NCBI GenBank assembly: GCA_021821945.1
Contig: JAJZTF010000008.1
Coordinates: 1-64,000, forward strand
Source: Pseudomonadota bacterium
GTDB taxonomy: Bacteria > Pseudomonadota > Gammaproteobacteria > Burkholderiales > Gallionellaceae
Direction: 5' to 3'
DNA length: 64,000 bases
The translations under genes and the position numbers were made by a program. The notes beneath the pieces are model-generated. The model ran no database searches. It worked only from the letters and a program-made list of their open reading frames with translations, and had not been told where the DNA came from. Positions 2,860 through 8,651 of this stretch are shown here, one piece after another (the first letter of the stretch is position 1; every line of letters starts with the position of its first letter).

Positions 2860-4572
2860 TCAGGCGATGCCCTGGTTTCCTTCCACGCCGATCAGCTTTG
2901 GCAGATTGAGCCTTCTTGGCGCAACGGTCTTCTTGTCGCGCAGATAGCCCGAAACCACATCCCAGATCGGCTCGCCCGTCACGCCCTCAGCGACAGGCGC
3001 CCAGCCTGCGACCTTGTATTTCCTGTCAGGATCGAGCGCCTTGCCGTTCAGCATCATGTTGTTGATGCGCGATCCCATGGTCTTCGTGAGATCGCAGGTA
3101 TAGCTGATGCCGCCGACCCTCACCATGTCCCCGCCCTGCTGCTTGTATGGGTCCGCGTTGAACAGGTTGTCGCACACGTCTTCCATGATGCCCTTGATGG
3201 TAGATCCAGTCATCTCGGTCAGCGTGGTCTGCGGATAGGTGATCGCCGTCTGGTCCATCAGGTGCTCCATCGTGATGGCTTCGCCCGGAAGCAGCGAAGT
3301 TCCCCAGCGGAAGCCCGGCGAAAAGGCGGCTTCGGCCCCCTTCACTTCCATCAGCGCGTCGAGTATCAGCTGATCGAAGGTGCCGTTGAAATTGCCGCGG
3401 CGGTAGAGCAGCCCCTCGGTGACCGCAAGCTTCTCGGAAAGCTTGTCCTCATAGGGCGCGCGCACCTTCGCAATCAGCGCGCTCATCTCGGCATCAGGCG
3501 CAATCAGGTTCGCGAACACCGGCAGGAGCTTGTACCTGAAGTCTGCGACCTTGCCGTTTTTCACATCGAAGTCCAGAACGCCCAGGAATTTCCCGTTCGA
3601 GCCCGCATTGGTGACCAGCGTCTGTCCTCCCGGATTCTTGACGGTGACCGGCTGGGGAACGCCGTCATGGGTATGGCCGCCCATGATCGCGTCTATCCCT
3701 GTCACGCGTCCTGCGAGCTTCAGGTCCACATCCATGCCGTTGTGGGAGAGCAGCACCACGACCTGCGCGCCCTTCGCGCGAGCGTCGTTGACGGTCTTCT
3801 GAAGATGATCTTCCTGTATGCCGAATGTCCAGTCCGGCGTCATGTAGCGGGGATTGGCGACGGGCGTGTAGGGAAACGCCTGGCCTATGATCGCTACGGG
3901 AATGCCGTTGACCTGCCTGATCGTGAAGTCCTCGAAGACCGGATCGCCGAAATCGGCCGTCTTGATGTTCTGGGCGACGAAATCGATCTTGCCCTTGAAG
4001 TCGTTGTCCACCACATGCCTGACCCGGTCGGCGCCCAGCGTGAATTCCCAGTGGCCCGTCATCACGTCCACGCCCAGGAGCTTGCCTGCATCGACCATGT
4101 CCTGCCCCTTGGTCCAGAGCGCCGTGGCGGATCCCTGCCAGGTGTCGCCGCCGTCCAGCAGCAGCGAACCCGGCCGGCTCGCGCGCATCTTCTTGACGAG
4201 CGTCGCAAGGTGCGCGAACCCGCCCACCTTGCCATAGGTCTTGGCCGCGCTTTCGAAGTCGAGATAGGTGAATGCATAGGCATCTCGGGAGCCCGGCTTG
4301 ATGCCGTAAGCCTTCAGCAGGTATTCGCCCACCAGATGGGGCGCACGGTTCCTGCTTGCGCCAAGTCCTATGTTGACGTTGGGCTCCCTGAAATAGACAG
4401 GCAGAAGCTGCGCGTGGCAATCCGTGATGTGCAGAAGCGAGACGTTGCCGAAAGCCGGCAGGTCGTAGAATTGATCGGCATTGCCGGCAAGCGCGGAACG
4501 GCTGTTCAATGCGAATCCGGAAGCAGCGGCCATTGCCAGGAGCTGCATGAATTCACGGCGGTTCATGGACAT
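2860..4572 (-). CDS. soxB: SoxB thiosulfohydrolase
   Basis: SoxB releases sulfate from the cysteine S-thiosulfonate carried on SoxYZ in the periplasm and is the marker enzyme of thiosulfate oxidation. The 570-residue protein begins with a twin-arginine signal (MNRREFMQLLAMAAASG). Metallophosphoesterase motifs follow: HITDCHAQ near residue 50, DGGDTWQGS, TGHWEFTLG, LLSHNGMD and GGHTHDG, which together bind the dimanganese centre. The 5'-nucleotidase-type C-terminal domain is complete. The start is supported by CAGGAG six bases upstream. It lies 16 bases after soxA and ends the apparent sigma/anti-sigma/sox unit. Confidence 0.97.
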   Translation of the reverse strand: MSMNRREFMQLLAMAAASGFALNSRSALAGNADQFYDLPAFGNVSLLHITDCHAQLLPVYFREPNVNIGLGASRNRAPHLVGEYLLKAYGIKPGSRDAYAFTYLDFESAAKTYGKVGGFAHLATLVKKMRASRPGSLLLDGGDTWQGSATALWTKGQDMVDAGKLLGVDVMTGHWEFTLGADRVRHVVDNDFKGKIDFVAQNIKTADFGDPVFEDFTIRQVNGIPVAIIGQAFPYTPVANPRYMTPDWTFGIQEDHLQKTVNDARAKGAQVVVLLSHNGMDVDLKLAGRVTGIDAIMGGHTHDGVPQPVTVKNPGGQTLVTNAGSNGKFLGVLDFDVKNGKVADFRYKLLPVFANLIAPDAEMSALIAKVRAPYEDKLSEKLAVTEGLLYRRGNFNGTFDQLILDALMEVKGAEAAFSPGFRWGTSLLPGEAITMEHLMDQTAITYPQTTLTEMTGSTIKGIMEDVCDNLFNADPYKQQGGDMVRVGGISYTCDLTKTMGSRINNMMLNGKALDPDRKYKVAGWAPVAEGVTGEPIWDVVSGYLRDKKTVAPRRLNLPKLIGVEGNQGIA

Positions 4573-4588
4573 TCTGGACTCCTGAAGA

Positions 4589-5401
4589 TTATTTTCGATA
4601 GACCGGGGTCTGCATGGGCAGGCCGTTGCTCATGTAAGTCATGAAGTATTCCAGGTCGTTGTATGTTTCGCTGTTCAGCGCCTGGGGCCTGGCGTGCATG
4701 TTTCTGCCGCACTGCGTGAAGCGCTGCTGCAGCGTCGTGATGTCGGTCCCGCCGAGGAACACCGGGTAATGGGTCGCCTGCCCCACCAGCATCGAGATGT
4801 GCTCGTCGTTCAGGATCTTTCCTGCATTGTCCACATGGCAGCCGGCGCAGGATCCCTTTCCGTGCTTCTCGTAATAGTAGGCCTTGCCCTTTTCATAGGC
4901 CGCAAGCGCGCCTTTGCCCTCGACCTTGACGTCTACCTTCATTCCGTCCGACAGGCTCTTCGCATAGGCGGTCAGAAGGCCCAACTCAACGCTGCCATAG
5001 GGCAGCGTCTTTTCGCCGTTTTTCTCAAGACATGCATTGATCGCGTTTTCGAAGGTCACGACGCGGTTCGCAGCCTCGTCGAAATAAGGGTAGTTGCCCG
5101 CGACGTTCCTGCCACCATCAGGAAAGCACGAGGAGAACTTCCTGCCGTTTGCGAAAGGCTGCTCCCATGCCTTCTGCCCCTTTTCCAGATCCATGGAATA
5201 GGAAGGGAACGACATGAAGTCGTCGTACTGGCTTTTCGCCCCCGGGTTCATCGAAAGCGAACCGTATATATAGTTCTCGAATCTGACGTCAGGTAGGATC
5301 TTTCTGTAGTGGTCGATCAGCGCCTCGCGGTCCTCCATCGGGCCCGCGAGCGCGTTGGAACCAGTCGCCAGCAGAAGGAGCGCGGCCAGAAGTTTGCGCA
5401 T
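4589..5401 (-). CDS. soxA: SoxA cytochrome (mono-haem type)
   Basis: SoxA is the catalytic half of the SoxAX complex, which joins thiosulfate oxidatively to the SoxY cysteine. From this start the protein has 270 residues: a Sec signal peptide ending near ALA, a first domain in which Cys92 and Cys124 are present but no CxxCH, and a second domain with one haem site CAGCH (185-189) and the ligand cysteine in QCGRNMHARP (Cys231). It is thus the one-haem form. A second ATG at 5416 is possible, but AAGGGGAAC directly precedes the ATG at 5401. No soxX is found in the window. Haem attachment would need the ccm genes at 36818-43732. Confidence 0.95.
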   Translation of the reverse strand: MRKLLAALLLLATGSNALAGPMEDREALIDHYRKILPDVRFENYIYGSLSMNPGAKSQYDDFMSFPSYSMDLEKGQKAWEQPFANGRKFSSCFPDGGRNVAGNYPYFDEAANRVVTFENAINACLEKNGEKTLPYGSVELGLLTAYAKSLSDGMKVDVKVEGKGALAAYEKGKAYYYEKHGKGSCAGCHVDNAGKILNDEHISMLVGQATHYPVFLGGTDITTLQQRFTQCGRNMHARPQALNSETYNDLEYFMTYMSNGLPMQTPVYRK

Positions 5402-5417
5402 GTTCCCCTTCAGCATG

Positions 5418-5732
5418 TCAGGCTGCGGCTATCTCGACTTCGCCGTCGAAATGCGCATCGAGGTTGTCCACCGCATGCACGGCGATCTTGTCGCCCGCCT
5501 TAGCGCCCTTGATCTTGAATTCGAAAAAAGGATTCTTGGCGACGCCGACCCCCCACTGCGCCTCGAGCACCGGCGTGCCATTCAGGGTCGCCGTGACGAG
5601 GTTGATGAAATGGGCCGGAATGAATTTCCCCGTCTCCTTGTCCTTGCGCAAACCGGTTTCCATGTCGTGCTGCATCAGTACCTTGACGGTTGCGACATCG
5701 CCATCCACCGTCGCGCGCATTCTCATTGCCAT
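5418..5732 (-). CDS. soxZ: SoxZ sulfur-carrier partner
   Basis: SoxZ is the small immunoglobulin-fold partner of SoxY; together they form the carrier on which thiosulfate sulfur is processed. The 104-residue protein has no signal peptide, as expected, since SoxYZ is exported on SoxY's Tat signal. KNPFFEFKIKGAKAGD is typical of the family. The start has AAAGGA seven bases upstream. It sits 48 bases after soxY and immediately before soxA, in the common soxYZAB order. Confidence 0.95.
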   Translation of the reverse strand: MAMRMRATVDGDVATVKVLMQHDMETGLRKDKETGKFIPAHFINLVTATLNGTPVLEAQWGVGVAKNPFFEFKIKGAKAGDKIAVHAVDNLDAHFDGEVEIAAA

Positions 5733-5780: not shown

Positions 5781-6239
5781 TCAGCCGCCGCATCCGCCCG
5801 CCGTCACCTTGACATCGCGGCTCGCCGTGTAGACCTTGCCGCCGGCCTTCACCATGATGCGGACGGGCGCGGTCTCTGCCATCTTGATGCGCACCGAGAT
5901 GAAAGGCTCCGCGCCATTGAGGAAATTGAACTCGGCGATCATGGGGTTGGGGTTCTTATCGGAAAAGATCGCGATCGAAGTGGTTCCGGGAATACTGCTG
6001 CTCGCCTCGACCGGCACCAGCGCGCCGTTTTCCGCAATCTCGGGGACCTTGATGTCGATGTCGTCGCTCGCTGCCGCATTGGCATATCCCGAACTCTTCA
6101 ACGCCTCATCCAGCTTTTTCGCGGTAAAAGCCGCGCTGTTCCATTCCAGTGCGAATGCCCTGCCCACCCTAAGCACCCCGGAAAGCATCGCGACCGCGAC
6201 GGCAGTGCCCTTCAAAAATGTTCTACGTGCCTGATTCAT
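5781..6239 (-). CDS. soxY: SoxY sulfur-carrier protein
   Basis: SoxY carries sulfur intermediates on a C-terminal swinging-arm cysteine. This 152-residue protein has a twin-arginine signal (ARRTFLKGTAVAVAML) and ends in GGCGG, whose cysteine is the attachment site. AAGG lies six bases before the start. Only 27 bases, without a terminator, separate it from the anti-sigma gene upstream. This strongly suggests that sox transcription is set by the sigma factor at 6992-7546. Confidence 0.96.
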   Translation of the reverse strand: MNQARRTFLKGTAVAVAMLSGVLRVGRAFALEWNSAAFTAKKLDEALKSSGYANAAASDDIDIKVPEIAENGALVPVEASSSIPGTTSIAIFSDKNPNPMIAEFNFLNGAEPFISVRIKMAETAPVRIMVKAGGKVYTASRDVKVTAGGCGG

Positions 6240-6266: not shown

Positions 6267-6995
6267 TCACACCCTGACATAGTCCCAGCCCTGCTGCAGA
6301 CGCATGTTGATTTCGTCAAGCGCCGAAGAGGCGACCCTGACATTCGGCAGAAGCTTCACGACCACCCCCTTCTTCTTCAGCGCATCCATGCTCTGCTTGC
6401 AGCCGACGACGTCCAGATTCGGATATTCCTTCTGCAGCGCGCTGATGCGGTCCCTGTAGCGGGTCACATCCGACCGCAGAAGATCGAGCCCCCCTCCGCT
6501 GGCGATGATTTCCATCTTCAGGTTCTGGCCCTTCTGCCGGTAGCTGTTCAACAGGCTCTCCGTCTCGTCAAGCGCGGTCTTGAGCCTCAGGGGGTTCGCA
6601 TCGCTGACCTGAACGATGATCTTGCCCGCACCCTGCTTGACATCGCTGTTCTGGATGACCCTGAACAGGCTCAAGACCTTGTGGTATTTCGTCGCATCAT
6701 GCTTCTCGGAAACGGTCCAGCCCAGTATGCCGCCCAGCAGGAGCAGGAACAGCGAGGCTGCAAGCGTCTGGACATAGCGGGTCCAGTCGCGCATTTTCGG
6801 CAGGCTTTGCATTTTCGGGCTCTCATGCTGCTGATAGGCATGCCTCACCATCTCCTTGAGGCCGCGCAGCTCGCACACGCGCATCTTCAAAACATCGTCC
6901 TGCTCCAGGCTGCCGAAGAGTTCGCTCTTCTCCTCTGGGCCTATCTCGTCGTCCACGAATGCATTGAGCAATTCATCGGAAACAGTATTCTTCAT
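6267..6995 (-). CDS. Membrane anti-sigma factor with a periplasmic DsrE-like domain
   Basis: This 242-residue protein starts at an ATG overlapping the sigma factor stop (ATGA), so the two are translationally coupled. Residues 1-60 resemble an anti-sigma domain (AFVDDEIGPEEKSEL, then a helix rich in charged residues). Residues 74-95 form one membrane segment. Residues 120-242 are a DsrE-like domain that aligns with the exported protein encoded at 7691-8125: IIVQVSDANP versus VILQVSDSVP, GCKQSM versus ACQNTM around Cys199, and a C-terminus GWDYVRV versus GWSYVRP. The predicted topology puts the DsrE-like part in the periplasm, beside the SoxYZ carrier. I infer that it senses periplasmic sulfane sulfur or a DsrE partner and releases the sigma factor. 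I know of no described anti-sigma factor of this architecture, but could not search. Confidence 0.85.
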   Translation of the reverse strand: MKNTVSDELLNAFVDDEIGPEEKSELFGSLEQDDVLKMRVCELRGLKEMVRHAYQQHESPKMQSLPKMRDWTRYVQTLAASLFLLLLGGILGWTVSEKHDATKYHKVLSLFRVIQNSDVKQGAGKIIVQVSDANPLRLKTALDETESLLNSYRQKGQNLKMEIIASGGGLDLLRSDVTRYRDRISALQKEYPNLDVVGCKQSMDALKKKGVVVKLLPNVRVASSALDEINMRLQQGWDYVRV

Positions 6996-7546
6996 ATGAC
7001 TCTCCTTATCAGCCTTGCCGGCTGTTCGGGTGCAAACTCCTGCAAGTGCAGCTTCAGCGCCTGACGGGCACGGCACAATCGGCTCATCACGGTGCCGACC
7101 GGGATTTCGAGAATGTTCGCGACCTCGACATAGGAAAACTCCTCGAGATCGACCAGGGTCAGCACCTGGCGCTGGCCCATCGGCAATCTGGCCACCGCCT
7201 CCTGCACGCGATTGACCACCTGCAACTGCGCATGATCCTTTTCGGGATCTGCATCATCTATGCAGCAGTGATCCTCCAGCTCGTCGATGTCTTCCATCGC
7301 CCTGGTCTGACGGAAATGGTCACGCCAGCAGTTTGCCAGTATGCTGAAAAGCCAGCTGCTCATCCTTTCGCTGTCCCGCAGCTGATTCCTGCTCTTCAGG
7401 GCCTTGATCAGCGTTTCCTGGACCAGATCGTCCGAAAGCGCGGCGTTGTGGCTCCAGGAAAAGGCCACACGGTAGAGCTTGGGGCGAATCTGCCTCAATT
7501 GCTCCTGGAATGCGTCCACCTGACAGAATAAGGATAGAATTTTCAT
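6992..7546 (-). CDS. ECF-type RNA polymerase sigma factor
   Basis: This 184-residue ECF sigma factor has region 2 at about 21-82 (DDLVQETLIKAL, then SSWLFSILANCWRDHFR) and region 4 at about 115-168 (LPMGQRQVLTL, then YVEVANILEIPVGTVMSRL, the helix-turn-helix). There is no region 1.1 or region 3. It heads a minus-strand unit with its anti-sigma factor and soxYZAB. The ECF-type promoter upstream of it (7575-7603) is the same as the one driving the divergent DsrE-like genes, which points to autoregulation. A Cys-Cys pair at 94-95 in the linker is unexplained. Confidence 0.93.
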   Translation of the reverse strand: MKILSLFCQVDAFQEQLRQIRPKLYRVAFSWSHNAALSDDLVQETLIKALKSRNQLRDSERMSSWLFSILANCWRDHFRQTRAMEDIDELEDHCCIDDADPEKDHAQLQVVNRVQEAVARLPMGQRQVLTLVDLEEFSYVEVANILEIPVGTVMSRLCRARQALKLHLQEFAPEQPARLIRRVI

Positions 7547-7574: not shown

Positions 7575-7603
7575 TAAGACGCGACAAATGTGCAGAATAT
7601 TCC
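7575..7603 (-). promoter_or_regulatory. ECF-type promoter of the sigma/anti-sigma/sox unit
   Basis: On the minus strand, GGAATA (7603-7598), a 16-bp spacer and CGTCTTA (7581-7575) match the usual ECF layout of a GGAA-type -35 and a CGTC -10. The -10 lies about 29 bases before the sigma factor start. The same two boxes with the same spacer occur on the other strand of this gap. Confidence 0.75.
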
Positions 7604-7629
7604 ATCGATGCCGAATAATCCAGAAATTC

Positions 7630-7658
7630 GGAATAAAAACCGGGCCTCCTTCGTCATA
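7630..7658 (+). promoter_or_regulatory. ECF-type promoter of the two exported DsrE-like genes
   Basis: GGAATA (7630-7635), a 16-bp spacer and CGTCATA (7652-7658) precede the first DsrE-like gene by 32 bases. The match to the promoter on the opposite strand (GGAATA-N16-CGTCTTA) makes recognition by the adjacent sigma factor likely. Confidence 0.75.
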
Positions 7659-7690: not shown

Positions 7691-8125
7691 ATGAAACACA
7701 TCCGGACACTCGCCTATGCATTCCTGCTTTCCTTTTCCTCGTTGGCCGCTCAGGCGGCGGATCAGGGCGACGTTCCCGTCGAACATCAGAAAGTGATTCT
7801 GCAGGTGAGCGATTCGGTGCCTTCAAAATGGAACCTGACTCTCAGCAACGCAAGCAACCTCCAGGAACTGCTCGGCAAGGACAACGTCGACATCGAGATC
7901 GTGGCCTACGGTCCCGGCATTGACATGCTCAGGCTGGAATCGGAGGTCGGCGACAAGATAGACAAGGCCATAAGCAATGGCGTGAAGATCGTCGCATGCC
8001 AGAACACCATGAAGGCCAAGAAGCTCACCAAGGACGACATGCTGACCTCGATAGACTATGTGCCGGGCGGCGTGCTCGAAATCATGCGCAAGGAAAAGGC
8101 AGGCTGGTCGTACGTCCGCCCATAA
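7691..8125 (+). CDS. Exported DsrE-like protein 1
   Basis: This 144-residue protein has a Sec signal peptide (about 1-23, ending AAQAAD) and a single DsrE/DsrF-like domain with Cys103 in VACQNTM, the position of the reactive cysteine in the family. Known DsrE and TusD proteins are cytoplasmic persulfide carriers, whereas this one should be periplasmic. It closely matches the outer domain of the anti-sigma factor, including the C-terminal GWSYVRP. The start has AAGGA eight or nine bases upstream. It is expressed from the ECF-type promoter at 7630-7658. A role as periplasmic sulfur carrier, or as the ligand-bearing partner of the anti-sigma factor, is inferred. Confidence 0.85.
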   Translation: MKHIRTLAYAFLLSFSSLAAQAADQGDVPVEHQKVILQVSDSVPSKWNLTLSNASNLQELLGKDNVDIEIVAYGPGIDMLRLESEVGDKIDKAISNGVKIVACQNTMKAKKLTKDDMLTSIDYVPGGVLEIMRKEKAGWSYVRP

Positions 8126-8150
8126 TTTTTTAATCCAACCGGAGAAATCA

Positions 8151-8651
8151 ATGAGAAAATTTCAACTCGCAGCAGCCATCCTCGCAGCAGCCCTGACATC
8201 TTTCCCCGCATGGGCAGACACCCCGGCGCCGCAGATACACGTCGACGTGCCCGTGACGCTCAAGTCCGCGAAGATCGTCTTCAACATGGATCACGCGGCA
8301 TTCAACGGCGACATGCCCATCGGCATCAGGCACATGCAGCTCGTGGTGCAGCGCTTCGACAAGATGGGCGCAGAACTCAGCATGGTGGGCGTATTCCACA
8401 GCGATGCAGGTTACATGCTGCTCAACGACGAGACCTACAACAAGGTGCGCAAGACCAAGACCGGCAATCCTTATGCGCCGCTGATCGAGGACCTGATCAA
8501 GCACGGCGTGCAGATCGAGGAGTGCGCCGTCACCATGAAGGGCAACGGCTGGGGCAACGAGAACCTGCTGCCCAACGTGAAGGTCAATACCGGTGCGATC
8601 GGCCGCATCGTCCAGCTGGAGCAGAACGGCTACATCATGATACAGCCCTGA
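8151..8651 (+). CDS. Exported DsrE-like protein 2
   Basis: This 166-residue protein has a Sec signal peptide (about 1-22, ending AWAD) and a DsrE-like domain with Cys125 in EECAVTM, aligned with Cys103 of the upstream protein. It is more diverged and longer, and ends GYIMIQP. The ATG at 8151 follows GGAGAAATCA and begins a good signal peptide; an in-frame start further upstream would lie inside the previous gene and has no such signal. It is 25 bases after the first DsrE-like gene and is followed by a strong terminator, so the two form a bicistronic unit. Confidence 0.83.
   Translation: MRKFQLAAAILAAALTSFPAWADTPAPQIHVDVPVTLKSAKIVFNMDHAAFNGDMPIGIRHMQLVVQRFDKMGAELSMVGVFHSDAGYMLLNDETYNKVRKTKTGNPYAPLIEDLIKHGVQIEECAVTMKGNGWGNENLLPNVKVNTGAIGRIVQLEQNGYIMIQP

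Follow-up and report, generated by a model that had tools for sequence, protein, structure and literature searches.

ECF sigma factors are sequestered at the membrane by anti-sigma factors. The same arrangement is described in PMC3445524, in the available text of which ECF sigma2 of Arcobacter butzleri activates sox genes, DsrE is unmentioned in the main text and no sensor of the kind presented below is described. Among the described systems closest to ours, RpoE4 of Sinorhizobium meliloti and SigE of Starkeya novella likewise combine an ECF sigma factor, a co-transcribed anti-sigma factor and a small sulfur-oxidation regulon. Their targets, as far as the accessible texts go, are sorT and sorAB (sulfite dehydrogenase). 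The promoter consensus of SOE-linked ECF26 systems has been given as GGAAT at -35 and CGTC at -10, with sulfite as the signal (PMC6527743, available part). Promoters of this GGAAT/CGTC type were reported to precede sorT, sorA and rpoE4, but not St. novella sigE (available parts of PMC6527743 and PMC3511301). ECF26-linked anti-sigma factors are mostly described as COG5662 in the accessible text of PMC3511301, where a DsrE domain is unmentioned, and the word DsrE is absent from the accessible text of PMC6527743. ECF26 switches are also treated in PMC10880074, the available text of which contains no promoter letters.

Sulfur oxidation genes are also controlled by proteins of other types. SoxR and sHdrR (ArsR-type) respond to sulfane sulfur, as is proposed here for the anti-sigma factor, and SoxR reportedly relies on the membrane protein SoxT1B for its signal (PMC11582611). 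They are, however, transcriptional repressors, whereas in our system the anti-sigma factor itself would read the signal (PMC10451225, PMC12423496, PMC11582611, each in its accessible part). TspS/TspR of Acidithiobacillus resembles our system in its membrane-based control of sox genes, but consists of a histidine kinase and a sigma54-dependent regulator instead of an ECF/anti-sigma pair, and its proposed signal is thiosulfate (PMC6335251, available part).

The locus analysed here lies in a window of 64 kb, by which we mean the whole stretch of DNA under study, and its candidate targets are sox genes and genes for exported DsrE-like proteins instead of sorT or sorAB. The ECF sigma factor (184 aa; 6992..7546, minus strand) contains sigma-70 regions 2 and 4 only, in about 180 aa, which places it among the ECF sigma factors, and both Pfam models were above cut-off (Sigma70_r2, 1e-13; Sigma70_r4_2, 2e-15). 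Its sequence relatives in the PDB are SigH, SigE, SigW and RpoE, and among the NCBIfam matches listed for it (25 of 99 models) only the superfamily model TIGR02937 exceeded the cut-off. The ECF26 promoter consensus was matched in the window and in relatives of the locus. The promoter type is therefore not new, since the same boxes have been reported for the sulfite-responsive ECF26 systems of Sinorhizobium and Starkeya; a beta-proteobacterial SOE-linked group, by contrast, is reported without this consensus in the text available. The likeness to RpoE4 and ECF26 is one of promoter letters and published descriptions.

The gap between the sigma gene and the dsrE1 gene holds two outward-facing, putative ECF-type promoters, the -35 boxes of which are 26 bases apart. 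On the minus strand, GGAATA (7603-7598), a 16-base spacer, CGTC (7581-7578) and TTA ending at 7575 make up the site that faces the sigma factor, the anti-sigma factor and soxYZAB (7575..7603). On the plus strand, GGAATA (7630-7635), again a 16-base spacer, CGTC (7652-7655) and ATA ending at 7658 make up the site that faces dsrE1 and dsrE2 (7630..7658). A preliminary description of this DNA had named both GGAATA-N16-CGTC sites, had put them about 30 bases from the two starts and had judged their coincidence unlikely by chance. The sites were recovered exactly where it had placed them, and the distances from CGTC to ATG were 31 bases for the sigma gene (ATG at 7546) and 35 bases for dsrE1 (ATG at 7691). 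The improbability was borne out by five matches of GGAATA-N15..18-CGTC in the 64-kb window against a mean of 0.23 after shuffling, with none of 100 shuffles reaching five, and by an expectation from base composition of 0.11 per 64 kb for the N16 form. The genome scan that it had suggested was specific only in a stricter form. Loose GGAATA-N15-17-CGTC matched 26 times in the whole genome against 7 times for the reversed pattern, and several matches were inside genes among the six loci with genes listed (L001-L003, L005-L007), so that the loose motif alone is insufficient to define a regulon, whereas GGAATA-N15..17-CGTCWTA matched five times and its reversed pattern not at all. Three of these five strict matches had the N16 spacer (0.075 expected), one N15 and one N17, and the three N16 sites were the pair in the window and one site before a porin gene. 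A match to the looser form, at 6405-6429 on the minus strand, was rejected as a promoter: it lies inside the anti-sigma coding sequence (EYPNLDVV), has an N15 spacer without TTA or ATA, and is regarded as a coding coincidence.

On the minus strand, the anti-sigma gene overlaps the sigma gene by 4 bases, and its stop is 27 bases from the start of soxY (5781..6239; TIGR04488, 164 bits, cut-off 125). Then follow soxZ (5418..5732; TIGR04490, 124 bits, cut-off 76), soxA (4589..5416; TIGR04484, 190 bits, cut-off 110) and soxB (2860..4572; TIGR04486, 891 bits, cut-off 550), all on the same strand and all four above the cut-offs of NCBIfam equivalog models. A scan of the minus strand from the sigma gene to soxB found no terminator-like and no sigma-70-like promoter site, in agreement with the terminator-free unit of sigma, anti-sigma and soxYZAB claimed previously, and the same scan found one plus-strand promoter-like site in the operon. 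The soxX model TIGR04485 had no match in this genome (G000) at E 1e-3, though soxA is present, and the genome may encode a divergent SoxX. On the plus strand, dsrE1 (144 aa; 7691..8125; PF02635, 28.7 bits, cut-off 22.7) and dsrE2 (8151..8651, searched as 8148-8651; PF02635, 34.6 bits), which starts 25 bases past dsrE1, both encode DsrE-like proteins with a signal peptide, that of DsrE1 being read from the sequence.

The anti-sigma factor (242 aa; 6267..6995, minus strand) consists of a weakly MucA/RseA-like N-terminus, one predicted membrane helix and a DsrE-like C-terminal domain, the last of which had escaped the preliminary description, and no Pfam family exceeded the cut-off on it. Its predicted cytoplasmic sigma-binding part (aa 1-54; 6834..6995, minus strand) is helical in the model, and the profile matches of the N-terminus were weak (MucA 6in7, E 0.11, aa 4-49; RseA 8z6g, E 0.2, aa 6-48). 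The predicted membrane helix (about aa 72-95; 6711..6782, minus strand), which spans aa 72-98 in the model, ends in a nearly universal GW. A gene beside that of an ECF sigma factor and a single predicted membrane helix are features that the protein shares with class I (RseA/MucA-type) anti-sigma factors, to which it may belong, with the membrane role of the helix read from the sequence and the model confidence there low to moderate. The sensor domain (aa 124-242; 6270..6626, minus strand) has a DsrE fold and is homologous to DsrE1; PF02635 gave no match on the anti-sigma factor at E 0.1, and DsrE1 and DsrE2 were both above its cut-off. Cys199 (codon 6399..6401, minus strand) is the only Cys after the membrane helix, and a single Cys after W93 was found in 223 of 223 aligned anti-sigma sequences. 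This residue aligns with the Cys of MTH1491 and ST0148 and with that of the stand-alone partners, and it is common to 103 of 103 sensor rows and 83 of 83 stand-alone DsrE-like rows. DsrE/DsrEFH, TusBCD and MTH1491 are separate proteins without an anti-sigma part, whereas here the DsrE-like domain forms one polypeptide with a membrane-bound anti-sigma part, in contrast also to the COG5662 description of most ECF26-linked anti-sigma factors. None of the literature searched was found to describe an anti-sigma factor of the DsrE type. A protein search for the anti-sigma factor on plasmids gave 8 records that matched the DsrE-like half only, and these were not accepted. Three full-length DsrE-type anti-sigma copies in one genome were seen in G330, G279 and G403, hinting at several parallel sulfur switches.

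To compare this locus with its relatives, homologous loci were located by alignment of the anti-sigma factor, and the best 80 named loci of 204 relatives were used. The sigma gene was present in 79 of the 80 (the record of L111 starts at the anti-sigma gene), and 77 loci were usable in having both a sigma gene and enough upstream DNA, L045, L056 and L111 being left out. The preliminary description had made its reading depend, among other things, on the pair recurring at the same locus in related genomes, and there it recurs. The sigma-strand GGAATA-N15/16-CGTC was found at 73 of the 77 usable named loci (66 with N16 and 7 with N15; absent at L059, L069, L075 and L108), the outward partner at 49 and both motifs at 48, against the reversed pattern on 0 of 154 strands at the same loci. 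No convergent motif pair within 250 bases was found across the 80 loci. Dozens of related bacteria, mostly sulfur oxidisers, keep the promoter pair at this same position. Across the 23 order-level genomes that carry the full-length anti-sigma factor, the strict motif matched 33 times against 3 times for the reversed pattern, with a match in 20 of the 23; the loci of the other three (G047, G079 and G187) carry looser forms. With its clean promoter signature, the motif can serve to search for members of the regulon.

In the relatives, the gene in the outward direction mostly encodes a DsrE-like protein; totals from the automatic calls of divergent genes (41 genes, 11 of them unassigned and several in a wrong frame, e.g. 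at L043, L044 and L046) were not used. An outward motif stands directly before soxY at L012/L043, L050 and L014/L055 (a slash joins two names of one sequence), and sox genes lie downstream of the anti-sigma gene on the same strand at L017/L053 (one sequence), L040, L041, L042 and L058. At L053, the order along one strand is motif, dsrE, porin, motif, sigma, anti-sigma, soxYZ and soxB. For nine called genes, at loci mostly titled Gammaproteobacteria or similar, dsrE is downstream of the anti-sigma gene instead. Because sox genes were found in the fetched flanks, some of them short, of only 11 of the 80 named loci, the conserved core consists of the sigma, anti-sigma and DsrE-like genes, with sox genes added in some lineages. 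The sox match at L112 probably represents a paralogue resembling SoxB.

Contig C9 carries the genome's third N16 site (L149:6845), flanked by a DsbC-type gene (L149:6061-6762; PF10411 and PF13098 above cut-off) and by a porin-like gene (L149:7029-8405; narrowly under the cut-off of PF07396), the start of which is 155 bases away. This DsbC-type gene is 48% identical to that of L040, which lies just upstream of the sigma gene and is preceded by the motif at a distance of 35 bases (CGTC to ATG); the DsbC-type gene of L041 is placed likewise, with the motif 40 bases before its ATG. The porin is 61% identical to the porin located after the anti-sigma gene at L039 and 54% identical to the one between dsrE and the sigma gene at L053. 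Since relatives of both genes stand beside the module, the dsbC-type and porin genes are likely members of the regulon, despite the distance of the site from the porin start.

The distribution of the anti-sigma factor was compared with that of SoxB. Among 200 order-level genomes, 23 (our own included) encoded the full-length anti-sigma factor and all 23 had SoxB above the curated cut-off, against 73 genomes among the remaining 177 (Fisher p 1e-8). Across the class, the anti-sigma factor had a match at E 1e-20 in 80 of 369 genomes, and the module was present at full length in 66 of the 369 sampled (our own included). SoxB was found in 51 of the 65 class-level carriers other than our own versus 9 of 65 non-carriers, and by genus in 39 of 51 carrier genera versus 9 of 65 non-carrier genera, both comparisons being unmatched for kinship and genome size. 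Thiosulfate oxidation is not the only setting of the module, since 14 of the 65 class-level carriers were without SoxB. Conversely, G024, G071 and G154, which belong to the same family as the genome studied here, encode SoxB but lack this anti-sigma factor. G140 matched only the N-terminal part of the anti-sigma factor (E 1.5e-6) and was not counted as a carrier. The module occurs in records named Sulfuricella, Sulfuriferula, Thiobacillus, Thiohalobacter and Sulfurisoma.

The midpoint-rooted tree of sensor and stand-alone domains placed 101 of 103 sensors in one group (support 0.79), and the sensors of L030 and L031 fell among the stand-alone DsrE proteins, which hints that the fusion of DsrE and anti-sigma domains may have arisen twice. 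The same split was recovered in a second tree, built from 56 rows (25 of the 103 sensors and 31 of the 83 others). An independent second fusion was not accepted as established, since a single origin was not rejected (p-AU 0.44).

We consider it probable that the adjacent ECF sigma factor recognises both sites as promoters, and that an anti-sigma factor with a periplasmic DsrE-like sensor tethers it to the membrane. The autoregulated ECF regulon proposed in the preliminary description, joining sox genes and two DsrE-like proteins, is supported by position here and in the relatives, with the promoter pair, the predicted autoregulation, the divergent DsrE-like unit and soxYZAB downstream in the putative sigma operon as its parts. 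According to the mechanism that we envisage, the anti-sigma factor would hold the sigma factor at the membrane, and its periplasmic half would be the DsrE-like domain with one essential-looking cysteine. Reduced sulfur in the periplasm would load or modify Cys199, either directly or via an exported DsrE-like partner, and this would weaken the binding between anti-sigma and sigma factor or trigger cleavage of the former. The freed sigma factor would then raise expression of its own operon, with soxYZAB, and of the exported DsrE-like proteins, which could take up sulfur or hand it over and might complete a feedback loop. In Allochromatium vinosum, Cys78 of DsrE binds sulfur, and DsrEFH, a heterohexamer, could be loaded in vitro by sulfide, whereas neither thiosulfate nor glutathione persulfide loaded it (PMC3397948, available part), so that direct loading by small molecules cannot be taken for granted. 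Our tentative proposal, which we hold to be plausible rather than probable, is that the anti-sigma factor is a new transmembrane sulfur sensor, the periplasmic DsrE cysteine of which would be loaded with sulfane sulfur, possibly by its exported paralogues as a periplasmic relay and feedback sink, so that the extracytoplasmic flux of sulfur would directly set sox and dsrE expression. The DsrE-bearing sigma/anti-sigma pair suggests an unfamiliar mode of sulfur sensing outside the cytoplasm and offers a possible role for the exported DsrE-like proteins. The single conserved Cys on the presumed periplasmic side makes the question of sensing testable by one point mutation.

Several other explanations were weighed against this proposal. 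That the two motifs coincide by chance or through coding constraints is hardly credible: looser motif forms do stand elsewhere in the genome, some of them inside genes, but conservation at the same locus and the control counts speak against it. It also seems quite improbable that the sigma factor controls only itself, the anti-sigma factor and the DsrE-like proteins, and that sox is a chance neighbour under another promoter. Such a separation would fit the 69 of 80 named loci whose retrieved flanks, in part short, contain no sox match, and the same-family genomes with SoxB but without the module. It fits poorly with the 27-base gap between the anti-sigma gene and soxY, with a minus strand free of sigma-70-like promoters and terminators from sigma to soxB, with the motif directly before soxY in several relatives and with the co-occurrence with SoxB.

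The signal could instead be sulfite or thiol redox, Cys199 being modified by sulfite or forming a mixed disulfide with an exported DsrE-like protein. The promoter consensus is that of the sulfite-signalled SOE-linked ECF26 systems (PMC6527743, available part), and the motif stands at the gene of a DsbC-type disulfide isomerase in L040 and L041, a relative of which adjoins the third N16 site. We nevertheless regard this as rather unlikely, given that the ECF26-linked anti-sigma factors are mostly COG5662, with a DsrE domain unmentioned in the accessible text (PMC3511301), and that the DsrE family is known for binding sulfane sulfur (PMC3397948, available part). Unlikely, in our judgement, is also a receptor role for the exported DsrE-like protein, in which the anti-sigma domain would only dock the loaded or empty partner, as in the heteromeric DsrEFH. 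The homology of the sensor and DsrE1, their position as neighbours under the paired promoter, the Cys in all sensor and stand-alone rows and the heterohexamer of DsrEFH (PMC3397948, available part) would all suit such docking, but the sensor's own Cys, kept in 223 of 223 sequences, would be needless for a pure docking site.

Some further features were observed around the module and its motifs. On the contig of the third N16 site, up to L149:8851, the opposite strand holds a DsrE-like gene with a signal peptide (from 8561 onwards), in convergent orientation with the porin gene. At L057, a Sulf_transp membrane protein (3996-5111; PF04143, 206 bits), of a family that we take to be linked to SoxT, is encoded behind the outward motif, with soxYZ further along. 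SoxT proteins, which are YeeE/YedE-like, take part in sulfur import and signalling (PMC11582611, available part). At L116 and L118, the latter titled Acidiferrobacter sp., the gene after the anti-sigma gene resembles by eye that of a YVTN beta-propeller protein, and the RpoE1 genes of Starkeya likewise have a YVTN gene nearby (PMC6527743, available part). The gap between the two -35 boxes at the 49 loci with an outward partner (L039-L118) was 21-27 bases at 19 and 32-40 bases at 18, with none of 28-31; these two clusters, counted regardless of kinship, are about one helical turn apart, and the window falls into the shorter one.
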